From Paraflavitalea pollutisoli (GTDB taxonomy: Bacteria > Bacteroidota > Bacteroidia > Chitinophagales > Chitinophagaceae): a stretch of 64,000 nt of DNA. Each line of letters begins with the position of its first letter. The stretch's first letter is position 1. The notes beneath the pieces are model-generated. The model was given only the letters and a program-made list of their open reading frames with translations, had not been told where the DNA came from and searched no databases. Both the position numbers and the translations under genes were made by a program. The stretch covers positions 806,001 to 870,000 of the forward strand of contig NZ_JARKMX010000001.1 of assembly GCF_029360705.1 (NCBI RefSeq), in the 5' to 3' direction. Below are positions 3,463-34,613 of the stretch, piece after piece.

Positions 3463-3534
<72 letters not shown>

Positions 3535-6116: not shown

Positions 6117-6147
6117 CACTCTCTTTGGCCAAAGAGGTTTTTTCAGA

Positions 6148-6242
6148 TTCCCGGGGTGCTTGACCCAGACTGCCGGCGGCAGGATGGCAAAGGCTGAGAT
6201 TATACCCGTAGAACCTGACCAGGGTAATGCCTGCGCAGGGAA
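6148..6242 (+). ncRNA. TPP riboswitch (THI element)
   Basis: The aptamer shows the conserved THI-box segments in order: GGGGTGC near 6153, GGCTGAGAT at 6192-6200, ACCCG, GAACCTGA at 6211-6218 and GGTAATGCCTGCGCAGGGA ending at 6242. P1 is closed by TTCCC (6148-6152) and GGGAA (6238-6242). CTGAGA and ACCTGA are the pyrimidine and pyrophosphate binding segments of known TPP aptamers. The 83-nt stretch before the ATG has no obvious terminator hairpin, so control may act on translation. Confidence 0.95.
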
Positions 6243-6325
6243 GGTAGGTCCTCTTCTATTGTCTACACTTCGCTTTCGCAGCATTTTCTCTTAAAATCAT
6301 TTTTTCACTCAAAATCTTTCCGAAG

Positions 6326-25050: not shown

Positions 25051-25107
25051 TGTGTTTAGTAGTCAAACTAACATTCATTAGTGGTCGTATTTGTTAAAAT
25101 CCCGATT

Positions 25108-25128
25108 AGTCTACCTTATGGGTAGAAA
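25108..25128. promoter_or_regulatory. TCTA-N9-TAGA palindrome, site 1 (upstream of the cysH promoter)
   Basis: TCTACC (25110-25115) and GGTAGA (25121-25126) are perfect inverted arms around TTATG, with AG flanking on the left. The site abuts the -33 box of the cys promoter (TTG at 25132). It shares exact geometry with sites at 28434, 34342 and 34568. Confidence 0.7.
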
Positions 25129-25131
25129 AAA

Positions 25132-25162
25132 TTGTCTGTTTCCGCCTCAGACCTTATCTTTG
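25132..25162 (+). promoter_or_regulatory. Promoter of the sulfate-assimilation operon
   Basis: TTG (25132-25134), then a 20-bp spacer, then TATCTTTG (25155-25162), fits the Bacteroidota sigma-A consensus. Transcription should begin near 25169, about 18 nt before the cysteine leader peptide. Confidence 0.75.
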
Positions 25163-25186
25163 TTTGGAGTCAACGATTATTTTTTC

Positions 25187-25255
25187 ATGCTACACTCTTT
25201 CGCGATGCAATACAATATTACCTCCTATTGTTACAACTATTGTTGTTGCTGTTGA
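25187..25255 (+). CDS. Cysteine-rich leader peptide upstream of cysH (22 aa)
   Basis: ATG at 25187 opens a 22-codon frame ending TGA at 25253-25255. The C-terminus reads YCYNYCCCC: five Cys codons, four of them consecutive (TGT TGT TGC TGT) right before the stop. It lies about 18 nt after the predicted transcription start and 71 bp before cysH. A second in-frame ATG is at 25205. A run of codons for the pathway's end product is the hallmark of attenuation peptides, and polycysteine leader peptides are known to control cysteine genes in mycobacteria. No classical terminator follows, so control may work by exposing or hiding the cysH start. Translation is inferred. Confidence 0.7.
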   Translation: MLHSFAMQYNITSYCYNYCCCC

Positions 25256-25326
25256 TTCATTATTCTCCATTTTGTTGCTTGTTTCTCTGCTAACTTTTAT
25301 TGATTACCGCTGAATTGTCAACCTAC

Positions 25327-26043
25327 ATGCATATGTCACTCCAGAATTATATTCCTGATTTAACCTACCAGTCGAGTGGACTATCGATTGGAGAGACGAT
25401 CGCGCTGCTGGCAAGGACCTTTCCGGCACAGGTGACTTTTTCTACCAGCTTCAGCTTTGAAGACCAGGTGGTAGCTCATGAGATCTTCAGCAATAGCCTG
25501 CCTGTGAAAGTATTCACGCTGGACACCGGGCGTCTGTTTGCGGAGACTTATTCTGTTTGGAATAGTACCAATTCAAAATATGGGTCGAACGTAAAGGCTT
25601 ATTATCCCAATAATGTGCTGCTGGAAGAGTTTGTGCAGGAAAACGGACCCAATTCATTTTACGAGTCGGTCGATCACCGCAAGAAATGTTGCTTTATCCG
25701 GAAAGTAGAGCCATTGAAAAGAGCGTTGCAAGGCAATGCTGTTTGGATCACCGGTTTGCGTGCCGAGCATTCTCCCGACAGGAATAACCTGACGGTGTGG
25801 GAGTGGGATGAAGGCAATCAGGTCATCAAATACAATCCTTTGCTGGACTGGAATACCGAGCAGGTACGCCAGTACATCGATAGCAATAATGTGCCTTACA
25901 ATCCATTGCATGATAAGGGTTTTGTGAGTATCGGATGTGCGCCCTGTACGAGGGCAATCAGGCCGGGCGAAGACTTCCGTGCCGGACGCTGGTGGTGGGA
26001 AGATGCCAGCAAAAAGGAATGTGGACTTCACGTTCACTCCTGA
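25327..26043 (+). CDS. cysH: Adenylylsulfate (APS) reductase, thioredoxin-dependent
   Basis: A 238-aa protein. It has the PAPS-reductase fold with TFSTSFSFEDQVV, and the four [4Fe-4S] cysteines that mark APS rather than PAPS reductases: Cys121/Cys122 (KKCCFIRKV) and Cys204/Cys207 (GCAPCTRAI). The catalytic cysteine is Cys232 in KECGLH. It reduces APS to sulfite. The absence of an APS kinase gene here agrees with APS as substrate. Starts at 25327 or 25333 are both possible (MHM); the frame extends to a TTG at 25300. Confidence 0.95.
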   Translation: MHMSLQNYIPDLTYQSSGLSIGETIALLARTFPAQVTFSTSFSFEDQVVAHEIFSNSLPVKVFTLDTGRLFAETYSVWNSTNSKYGSNVKAYYPNNVLLEEFVQENGPNSFYESVDHRKKCCFIRKVEPLKRALQGNAVWITGLRAEHSPDRNNLTVWEWDEGNQVIKYNPLLDWNTEQVRQYIDSNNVPYNPLHDKGFVSIGCAPCTRAIRPGEDFRAGRWWWEDASKKECGLHVHS

Positions 26044-28422: not shown

Positions 28423-28433
28423 TATGCCCCTTT

Positions 28434-28454
28434 AATCTACTAAAAAAGTAGACA
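28434..28454. promoter_or_regulatory. TCTA-N9-TAGA palindrome, site 2 (at the cobA start)
   Basis: TCTACT (28436-28441) and AGTAGA (28447-28452) are perfect inverted arms around a 5-bp A-run. The site ends 2 bp before the cobA ATG and lies downstream of the candidate -7 box, a typical repressor position. Confidence 0.72.
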
Positions 28455-28456
28455 TA

Positions 28457-29311
28457 ATGAAAGCAAACCACACAGGTAAAGTGATTCTGGCAGGTGCCGG
28501 TCCGGGTGATCCCGAACTGCTGACCATCAAGGTGGCCCGATACCTGCAACAGGCGGATGTAGTATTGACCGACCGGCTGGTGAGTGAGGATATCCTGAAG
28601 GCCTATGTACGGCAGGATGCAACTTTGATCTATGTGGGCAAGCAGTGTCGCCGCGGTGCTTCTACACCGCAGGAAACGATCAACGAGCTGCTGGTGGAAT
28701 ATGCCGAACAAGGCAAACTGGTAGTGCGCCTGAAAGGGGGCGATGTATCTATCTTTTCCAATATCCTGGACGAGCTGCAAATACTGGCTGCTCATCAAAT
28801 TCCTTATGAGATCATTCCGGGAGTGACGTCGGCCCTGGGCGCCGCGGCCTATGCCGGTATTCCGTTGACCGCCCGTGGATATTCAACCGCGGTTCGCTTG
28901 TTGACCTATTATAAATCCGATGTGGTTACCGACGCTTACTGGAAGGAACTGGCGACCACGGATGATACCCTGGTATTTTATATGTCGTCGGAAACCCTCG
29001 AAGGGGTGGTAGCCAACCTGACCCGGCATGGTATCAACGGCGATAAATTACTGGCTGTGGTGGAGCAGGCAACAACCCCGCTGCAGAACCTACAGGTGTG
29101 CAATATTTACGATTACAATGAACAGTTGAAAGGCAGGAAATTCATTTCTCCTTCACTGGTGATCATAGGCCGGGTAGTAGGACTGCATGAGCAGTTTGGC
29201 TGGCTGGCCAACAGCAATAGCCGGGAGGAGTACTTTAAGCCCGTAGCCAAATTATTTACAACCATTACTGACCATACTGAAAAAGTAAAAGACCATGTTA
29301 GTAGAGCCTAA
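28457..29311 (+). CDS. cobA: Uroporphyrinogen-III C-methyltransferase
   Basis: A 284-aa SAM-dependent methyltransferase of the tetrapyrrole methylase family. Motifs: VILAGAGPGDPELLTIKVARYL, VVLTDRLVS, VGKQCRRG, VRLKGGDVSIF and EIIPGVTSALGAAAYAGIPLTARG. It makes precorrin-2, the precursor of the siroheme used by the sulfite reductase encoded two genes on. Its 3' end overlaps cysJ by 17 bp, so the two are translationally coupled. Confidence 0.95.
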   Translation: MKANHTGKVILAGAGPGDPELLTIKVARYLQQADVVLTDRLVSEDILKAYVRQDATLIYVGKQCRRGASTPQETINELLVEYAEQGKLVVRLKGGDVSIFSNILDELQILAAHQIPYEIIPGVTSALGAAAYAGIPLTARGYSTAVRLLTYYKSDVVTDAYWKELATTDDTLVFYMSSETLEGVVANLTRHGINGDKLLAVVEQATTPLQNLQVCNIYDYNEQLKGRKFISPSLVIIGRVVGLHEQFGWLANSNSREEYFKPVAKLFTTITDHTEKVKDHVSRA

Positions 29312-34294: not shown

Positions 34295-34298
34295 ATAA

Positions 34299-34328
34299 AA
34301 AGCCCCGCGGCCATGCGCCCGGGGCTTT
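34299..34328 (+). terminator. Terminator of the cys operon
   Basis: AAAGCCCCG (34299-34307) pairs with CGGGGCTTT (34320-34328), with T-rich sequence after the stem. Confidence 0.88.
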
Positions 34329-34341
34329 CTTATATATTAAT

Positions 34342-34362
34342 AGTCCATTAAAATAATAGACT
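34342..34362. promoter_or_regulatory. TCTA-N9-TAGA palindrome, site 3 (upstream of leader peptide 2)
   Basis: AGTCCATT (34342-34349) and AATAGACT (34355-34362) are inverted 8-bp arms with one mismatch around AAAAT. The spacing is the same as at sites 1, 2 and 4. It lies about 32 bp before the second cysteine leader peptide. Confidence 0.68.
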
Positions 34363-34393
34363 GTATTTCGAAAATATCCTTTAAATTAGCGCC

Positions 34394-34480
34394 ATGATGC
34401 AATACCATTCGACTCCCTCACGACTATACTACGTGGCTACGATCCATGCTTTGGAGTGCTATTGTTGTACTAACAAATAG
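34394..34480 (+). CDS. Cysteine-rich leader peptide upstream of the TonB receptor (28 aa)
   Basis: ATG at 34394 opens a 28-codon frame ending TAG at 34478-34480. The tail reads ECYCCTNK (TGC TAT TGT TGT), a Cys-Tyr-Cys-Cys cluster close to the stop, as in the leader before cysH. The Cys codons form the 5' arm of a hairpin (TGCTATT 34457-34463 with AATAGCA 34476-34482) whose 3' arm covers the stop codon, so a stalled ribosome would open it. A terminator-like hairpin follows at 34525. GCGCC precedes the ATG, as at kdsA and dut. Translation is inferred; the only evidence is composition, position and the matching upstream copy. Confidence 0.7.
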   Translation: MMQYHSTPSRLYYVATIHALECYCCTNK

Positions 34481-34524
34481 CAGCCGCCCAGGTTCATCAT
34501 TCCAACATAATTACTCAATCCCGT

Positions 34525-34556
34525 AACCCGGATCAACACCCTTGTCCGGGTTTTAT
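34525..34556 (+). terminator. Attenuator-type terminator between leader peptide 2 and the TonB receptor
   Basis: AACCCGGA (34525-34532) pairs perfectly with TCCGGGTT (34545-34552) over a 12-nt loop and runs into TTTTATT. It lies 45 nt after the leader stop codon and 58 nt before the receptor start, where an attenuator would sit. A weak competing segment (CAGGTT near 34500) could pair with its 5' arm. Confidence 0.68.
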
Positions 34557-34567
34557 TAGACCATATA

Positions 34568-34588
34568 AGTCTATTAAATAAATAGACT
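34568..34588. promoter_or_regulatory. TCTA-N9-TAGA palindrome, site 4 (just upstream of the TonB receptor)
   Basis: AGTCTATT (34568-34575) and AATAGACT (34581-34588) are perfect 8-bp inverted arms around AAATA. It lies after the attenuator hairpin and 25 bp before the receptor ATG, so it could control a second, attenuator-free promoter or block readthrough. It is the best-conserved copy of the motif. Confidence 0.75.
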
Positions 34589-34613
34589 TTAACCTGCAAA
34601 TATCAACGACAAC

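Follow-up and report, generated by a model that had tools for sequence, protein, structure and literature searches.

In the window, a 64,000-nt stretch of the 8.76 Mb genome of Paraflavitalea pollutisoli, the gene of a TonB-dependent receptor adjoins a block of cys genes, and a short open reading frame (ORF) ending in clustered cysteine codons lies before it. Does this ORF act as a leader through which cysteine supply controls an outer-membrane receptor? The sulfur block is arranged in the order cysH, cysD, cysN, a cobA-like, a cysJ-like and a cysI-like gene, a gene that joins the N-terminal domain of siroheme synthase to a TauE-type exporter, and the TonB-dependent receptor; part of these gene names is our reading of the sequences, not a profile match. 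The receptor is tied to cysteine metabolism by its position next to the cys block only, and cysH belongs to cysteine synthesis. No PDB chain matched the receptor family profile at E ≤ 1e-10.

The receptor ORF, like the second one of the sulfur cluster, is with high probability a true leader, because Cys-tailed ORFs occur before both genes far above the level of shuffled sequences, in the family at large and also in some genomes outside it. We consider it likely that this upstream ORF serves the receptor gene as a cysteine-sensing leader and that the ORF before cysH has the same role there. Cysteine supply would probably set the amount of the receptor and of the cysH product. The features of both upstream regions are listed in Table 1.

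Table 1. Features of the cysH and receptor upstream regions, in positions of the window
Feature	Position	Strand	Remark
Imperfect palindrome TTAGTCTACCTTATGGGTAGAA	25106..25127		5′ of the cysH leader promoter
TATCTTTG, putative Bacteroidota-type −7 element of the cysH leader	25155..25162	+	from sequence
Cys leader ORF of cysH, MLHSFAMQYNITSYCYNYCCCC-stop	25187..25255	+	tail YCYNYCCCC-stop
cysH, APS/PAPS reductase	25327..26043	+	opens the sulfate-assimilation block
GC-rich hairpin followed by a T-rich stretch, probably terminating the cys operon before it	34300..34333	+	from sequence only
Palindrome OP1, probable regulator site	34341..34363		5′ of the receptor leader; 2 mismatches to the pattern
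Cys leader ORF of the receptor, MMQYHSTPSRLYYVATIHALECYCCTNK-stop	34394..34480	+	ATG 34394, TAG 34478–34480, 28 codons
Codon-covering hairpin	34457..34482	+	Cys codons in 5′ arm, stop codon in 3′ arm
Terminator-like hairpin	34525..34557	+	8 bp, −13.7 kcal/mol, short T-run
Palindrome OP2	34567..34589		between terminator-like hairpin and receptor
TonB-dependent receptor, 976 aa	34614..37544	+	CarboxypepD_reg-like domain, plug, barrel

The 28-codon frame ending in ECYCCTNK-stop, which a preliminary description of this DNA had reported, is present before the receptor gene. Its Cys codons (34457, 34463 and 34466) are located, as described, in the 5′ arm of a hairpin that closes over the stop codon. 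This hairpin has 11 bp with one bulge and a folding energy of −7.7 kcal/mol, and the fold of 60 nt around the stop codon reached a z-score of −2.45 against mononucleotide shuffles. An 8-bp terminator hairpin with a T-run had been described about 45 nt further on. The hairpin itself was recovered, with the arms AACCCGGA (34525–34532) and TCCGGGTT (34545–34552) pairing 44 nt past the leader stop, but its T-run (TTTTATT) is short and begins within the stem. A scan for consensus terminators found 0 and did not report this hairpin, a test requiring TTTTT missed it, and a laxer scan did pick it up. The 81 nt around it folded with a z-score of −1.86, and the leader region as a whole with −0.66, i.e. 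without unusual stability. The distance from leader to receptor gene is 133 nt, including the terminator-like hairpin. The leader peptide gave no NCBIfam match at E ≤ 1. The other of the two Cys leader peptides placed around one sulfur block by the description was likewise found, before cysH. When the receptor intergenic region (34295–34613) was put through 4000 dinucleotide shuffles, 2 of them contained an ORF with an ATG start, 10–60 codons and at least three Cys among the last 8 residues; of 4000 shuffles of the cysH leader region (25051–25323), 62 gave a comparable Cys-tailed ORF.

Upstream regions of cysH and receptor genes from other genomes were compared with their shuffled versions. 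All 88 cysH loci were kept; from 119 receptor loci, three with less than 150 nt of upstream sequence and 11 duplicates among the remaining 116 were removed, leaving 105, and 11 distant receptor paralogues (L221–L231) were left out of the counts. With Cys-tailed defined as an ATG start and at least three Cys in the last 10 residues, 38 of the 88 cysH regions contained a Cys-tailed ORF compared with a mean of 1.5 in ten dinucleotide shuffles, and 24 of the 105 receptor regions compared with a mean of 0.8. In the same shuffle test no residue other than Cys had a comparable tail excess before either gene, the next largest being Lys before cysH (11 vs 4.0) and Tyr before the receptor (7 vs 1.9). 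A scan of 81 receptor-centred loci (the window and 80 named ones), each containing a receptor by construction, covered 815 small upstream ATG ORFs and listed 35 as Cys-tailed; the genes behind these were the receptor (22), cysH (10), cysI (1), cysJ (1) and one other.

For the properties of the leaders themselves we used 37 cysH and 21 receptor leaders; each has three or more Cys in the last 10 residues, a stop at most 145 nt from the gene, and ATG, GTG or TTG as start codon. Both Cys codons are used, with TGT/TGC counts of 151/56 in cysH leaders and 48/38 in receptor leaders. Cys is the final residue of 26 of the 37 cysH leaders, and the other 11 end one or two residues later. Leaders of 17 residues or fewer are found among both kinds (10/37 cysH, 8/21 receptor), and the distance from leader stop to gene is 36–80 nt in 34 of 38 cysH leaders. 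The Cys-specific excess and the use of both Cys codons speak for translation of the leaders; the codon-position pattern within the genus, given below, does not. Among 64 cysH genes that, by an approximate criterion, have their own 5′ region, 28 are without a leader of the strict type; some of these 28 have shorter Cys tails, and some may be miscalled.

Outside the family, a clear poly-Cys leader was present in three of 40 cysH upstream regions (G305, G253 and G346), which were taken from 88 genomes with a cysH match. G309, with a GTG start, possibly carries a fourth, and none of the 14 cysH regions of the largest family sampled (f5) had a clear one. The best receptor relatives in named genomes belong mostly to Chitinophagaceae, with Sphingobacteriales and Dyadobacter among them. 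Named carriers of a receptor leader include two Solitalea (CCCCC-stop and CCCC-stop), Hufsiella (CCCCR-stop), three Mucilaginibacter (CCC-stop, CCCCR-stop and HCC-stop) and one of four Dyadobacter (D. diqingensis, CRCCISH-stop). Under a lax rule, 39 genomes divided into eight with both leaders, nine with the receptor leader only, 15 with the cysH leader only and seven with neither, and no clear link between the occurrence of the two leaders was seen in this set. On a quick receptor tree the lax leader label (34 of 81 rows) needed 22 changes compared with a mean of 26 for shuffled labels; 27 and 34 of 500 label shuffles came out as low as observed. The patchy distribution of the receptor leader may reflect repeated gain and loss, or a noisy lax label. 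A search of 60 family genomes for CCCC-stop runs was uninformative, because the pattern also matches other frames, and was not used.

Within the genus, the cysH leader is present in all five genomes (the window's own, G085, G147, G148 and G149) and ends in CCCC in each. It is better kept than its surroundings, as fewer columns of the five aligned cysH upstream regions are variable (14/69 in the leader vs 98/200) or contain gaps (0/69 vs 29/200). A third-position excess was not found in this alignment, the variable columns falling on codon positions 1, 2 and 3 as 5/6/3, and the genus set by itself therefore shows no selection on the cysH leader peptide. The Cys codons of the receptor leader had been expected to be conserved in relatives. 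This held for the window, G085 (ending in ATIHALECSCCCG-stop) and G149 (MMQYQYTHIQPYYYLAPISTLSRCCC-stop, tail SRCCC-stop), which keep the Cys tail though much of the peptide has diverged, but the leader is absent from G147 and G148. The receptor upstream region of one genus member, L265, reads by eye the same as that of the metagenome-assembled genome Niastella sp. BIN41 (L074). In eight groups of related leaders, which were chosen for their Cys tails so that the comparison carries this bias, 38 of 45 Cys columns were identical vs 105 of 158 other columns (Fisher p = 0.025). All eight gaps in these groups are multiples of three. This was dropped as proof of the reading frame because the ORF lengths force much of the pattern.

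Minimum-energy folds of 42 nt gave a hairpin covering Cys codons and leader stop in three related sequences, those of the window, G085 and G149. Window and G149 hairpins are alike including the bulge, and G085 forms a different structure over the same elements. A terminator-like hairpin follows the receptor leader in all three genomes, at the same position and with another sequence, and its T-run is longer in G085 and G149 than in the window. The three genus terminators aligned badly, and the alignment was not used for counting pairs.

Leaders usually carry a promoter motif of their own. The sequence TAnnTTTG, which we take to be the Bacteroidota −7 element, was found near 31 of the 37 cysH leaders, compared with a shuffle mean of 5.5, and near 17 of the 21 receptor leaders, compared with 2.8, typically some tens of nucleotides 5′ of the leader start. 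No such motif precedes the receptor leader of the window, and none was seen by eye at OP2. A palindrome is the second recurrent element; its copies OP1 and OP2 in the window had gone unmentioned in the preliminary description. Its stricter form (TCTACT-N5-AGTAGA type), a pattern that misses the variant copy of the window, lies close to 17 of the 21 receptor leaders and 17 of the 37 cysH leaders, compared with shuffle means of 0.9 and 0.7. By eye, the palindrome stands directly before the receptors of many relatives, whether a leader is present or not. In the window's own genome it also precedes the cobA-like gene, a serC-like gene and TonB/SusC-like genes. A genome-wide search showed no enrichment, with 12 and 12 matches compared with 11 and 11 for the backwards pattern used as control, and therefore only sites in promoter position are meaningful. 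The leader promoters are probably also under a regulator that binds the palindrome, which would add a second level of control.

Several single sites were noted along with these. The palindrome at 28433–28455 ends right where the cobA-like gene begins (start codon at 28457), and the same putative regulator may therefore act inside the cys block. At L036 (C1:508986 of the own genome) a palindrome-like site with three mismatches lies right before the serC-like gene; serine is the precursor of cysteine. The own genome contains two genes for Rrf2-family regulators, and no palindrome was found in the stretch around either of them. One of the two, L232 (C14:6776–7177), adjoins an adenosylhomocysteinase-like gene and is a candidate for the palindrome binder. 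At eight loci (L081, L084, L088, L097, L107, L116, L121 and L006) two or three tandem units of palindrome and GC-rich hairpin with T-run precede the receptor, without a Cys leader.

How would the leader work? When charged tRNA-Cys is scarce, a ribosome would wait on the terminal Cys codons beside the leader stop, and with the ribosome waiting there, transcription or translation would continue into the downstream gene. With plentiful cysteine the ribosome would finish the leader and leave, and expression would stop early. The receptor would thus be made when cysteine is scarce. Since the Cys codons stand nearly at the leader stop, a stalled ribosome would cover the stop codon and the first dozen bases after it. 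The sensor part of this proposed system is well supported, and the output is its least certain step. In the window's genus the early stop may fall at the terminator-like hairpin, and cysH and most other relatives would use a Rho-type or translational output, which fits them better because their short spacers have more C than G and mostly lack a terminator. The receptor gene of the window may be governed either by intrinsic termination or from a second promoter.

A second promoter would make the leader a minor or decaying input in this species. The main receptor promoter would then lie at OP2, 3′ of the terminator, under a palindrome-binding protein, and hairpin and palindrome would form a duplicated unit. 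This arrangement is unlikely, though it has to be taken seriously. The two leaderless genus members keep one hairpin–palindrome unit before the receptor, Niastella relatives have two or three such units without a Cys leader, and the leader of the window lacks the usual −7 motif. A leader-free second start may exist, given that a palindrome follows the terminator, the leader is missing from two of five genomes and no promoter motif was found before the leader of the window. However, TAnnTTTG is not visible at the second palindrome either, and the Cys tail has been kept in three of five genomes despite divergence of the peptide.

The preliminary description saw the layout of a classical attenuator. 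In a trp-type mechanism, stalling on the Cys codons would open the first hairpin, its 3′ half would form an antiterminator, and formation of the hairpin at 34525 would be prevented. The layout held in so far as the codon hairpin and the terminator-like hairpin exist in the three genus members with a receptor leader, two of which (window and G149) share the bulge, but an antiterminator was not found. In the window the best pairing between spacer and terminator arm reached −6.6 kcal/mol and that with any part of the leader −8.1 kcal/mol, both weak against −13.7 kcal/mol for the terminator; in G149 the values were −5.6 vs −10.9 kcal/mol, and these pairing energies leave out loop costs. A ribosome on the Cys codons would be too far upstream to block the terminator-like hairpin itself. 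Among relatives at large, a terminator follows 7 of 38 cysH leaders (shuffle mean 2.5) and 10 of 50 receptor leaders (3.1), the latter collected by a lax rule of at least two Cys, and intrinsic termination was rejected as a general output since it concerns a minority of leaders outside the genus. A hairpin with the Cys codons in its 5′ arm next to a T-run occurs in five distant leaders among 48 examined, which agrees with the trp-type scheme but is too few for a general output. Moreover, palindrome and hairpin also stand before receptors without any leader. We regard the trp-type mechanism as doubtful for the window.

Translational control, in which the stalled ribosome alters folding at the downstream start or how often translation re-initiates, appears rather improbable; such a mechanism has been proposed for the poly-Cys leaders of mycobacteria. 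Translation attenuation has been reported for cysteine genes of M. smegmatis in the passages cited (PMC13236596), and the short distance between leader stop and gene in most cysH leaders would suit it, but these distances exceed the re-initiation peak of 11–14 bp given for Bacteroidetes in the cited part of PMC4833913. The window's receptor spacer is longer still and holds the terminator-like hairpin. Furthermore, the Cys tract pairs no better with the start of its own gene than with the starts from other genomes (mean rank of the cognate pair 0.54 and 0.49), which leaves this pairing unsupported as a general output.

The composition of the spacers was compared between 36 cysH and 20 receptor leaders outside operons (by a rough rule) and 28 and 81 genes without leader. 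C/(C+G) of cysH spacers was 0.66 (n = 36) vs 0.50 before leaderless cysH (n = 28; p = 9e-5), and the pyrimidine fraction was 0.64 vs 0.53 (36 vs 28; p = 5e-5). The cysH spacers are unstructured, with a mean z of +0.49 and 0 of 37 below −1.5. These properties fit a Rho-type output, such as that of tnaC or CruR, which we favour for cysH. In receptor spacers C/(C+G) was 0.72 vs 0.60 without leader (p = 0.002); G is depleted, and C as such was not enriched (p = 0.36). Their structure is average (mean z 0.03), with 3 of 21 structured.

Very improbable is a peptide whose cysteines detect a metal or thiol, in the manner of CruR before bfrG of Bordetella, although the context is the same, a Cys-bearing upstream ORF before a TonB-dependent transporter (PMC9426467, passages used here). 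ECYCC formally contains CXXC, but the window peptide shows no RAPP arrest motif, and such leaders also precede cysH, a cysteine-synthesis gene. Judged from the length of the ribosome tunnel, the cysteines of the many short leaders, in which Cys is often last, would still be inside the ribosome. That the receptor leader is a chance ORF is the least credible reading: the ORF is short, folding of the region as a whole does not surpass that of shuffles and the genus cysH leader lacks a third-position excess, but shuffles of the intergenic region hardly ever yield such an ORF, Cys-tailed ORFs are in excess before the same genes across genomes, and the cysH leader is retained throughout the genus.

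The leader-peptide attenuators of amino-acid operons are typified by trp and his. As in these, the leader codons considered here specify the amino acid concerned, and the window also has the codon-covering and terminator-like hairpins; unlike in these, an antiterminator was not found and one of the targets is a receptor rather than a biosynthetic operon. For Bacteroidota, leader-peptide attenuation has been suggested for amino-acid operons of Flavobacterium psychrophilum (PMC9723704, in the part cited), and short ORFs in long 5′ UTRs are described for Bacteroides thetaiotaomicron in the cited section of PMC7366714.

Poly-Cys leader ORFs precede the cys operons of Mycobacterium and Propionibacterium acnes and cbs of Bifidobacterium longum; the cited passages predict them without terminators and suggest pyrimidine motifs as Rho sites (PMC1262725). 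For the mycobacterial leaders, Canestrari et al. 2020 is cited within PMC13236596, which in its relevant passage describes the regulation in M. smegmatis as translation attenuation. As far as the cited text of PMC1262725 goes, the actinobacterial leaders resemble ours in being short ORFs with a Cys run near the stop, before sulfur genes and without a conserved terminator. They differ in that our leaders belong to another phylum, also precede an outer-membrane receptor, have a palindrome at many promoters and, in the window's genus, are followed by a terminator-like hairpin after the receptor leader. Leaderless translation of the uORF counts as a further trait of the mycobacterial type. Closest in layout is the uORFC-8-2 motif before cysS of Rhodobacterales, for which a consensus structure over 145 examples is given, with tandem Cys codons in the first stem followed by a terminator stem with a U-run (PMC8632094, in the portion cited). 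Its target, however, is a cysteinyl-tRNA synthetase, and the hairpins described here occur in three genus members and are not general.

The CruR upstream ORF, too, controls a TonB-dependent transporter gene, bfrG of Bordetella pertussis, and ribosome stalling on it shields an unstructured stretch with more C than G from Rho, according to the cited passages of PMC9426467. By the definition of CruR (DUF2946) in these passages, the window peptide was rejected as a family member, having 28 residues and no RAPP by inspection. CruR is an exported protein of 145 residues that responds to copper via CXXC and stalls on RAPP, whereas the signal here would be cysteine supply read at the codon level. In the literature searched, we found no report of Cys leaders in Bacteroidota and none of an amino-acid leader before an outer-membrane receptor.

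Control by amino-acid leaders is known for biosynthetic operons and tRNA synthetases. The leaders described here are very probably genuine; the proposed principle is ordinary, and the target, an outer-membrane receptor, and the phylum are new as far as the literature was searched. If confirmed, amino-acid leader control would extend to an outer-membrane receptor and to Bacteroidota, and the leader would give a handle on the receptor substrate, namely ‘cysteine supply’. We tentatively put forward a wider picture, which may well prove wrong: Cys-codon leaders of Bacteroidota would turn over fast and arise anew at the same small set of genes, and cysteine supply, read at the codon level, would control both synthesis, through cysH, and uptake across the outer membrane. 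As far as the literature was searched, the sulfur-cluster TonB receptor would then be the first receptor under an amino-acid leader, and it may import a sulfur compound. Close relatives offer a natural series, with the same gene preceded by a leader in some and not in others.

A third upstream ORF was noticed before a SusC-like gene in three genus members (L310, in the C6:962140 region of the window's own genome, L311 and L312). It has 25 codons and ends in QYCSLYRC-stop, QHNSIYRC-stop and QHGSVYRC-stop, the third translated by eye, with only the final Cys common to all three. A palindrome is located at its promoter; the site is placed about 225 nt, and the ORF about 148 nt, before the SusC-like gene. 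Elsewhere in the window, a TPP riboswitch is located at 6142–6259 (Rfam RF00059, 63.5 bits) and a tRNA on the other strand at 3463–3534.
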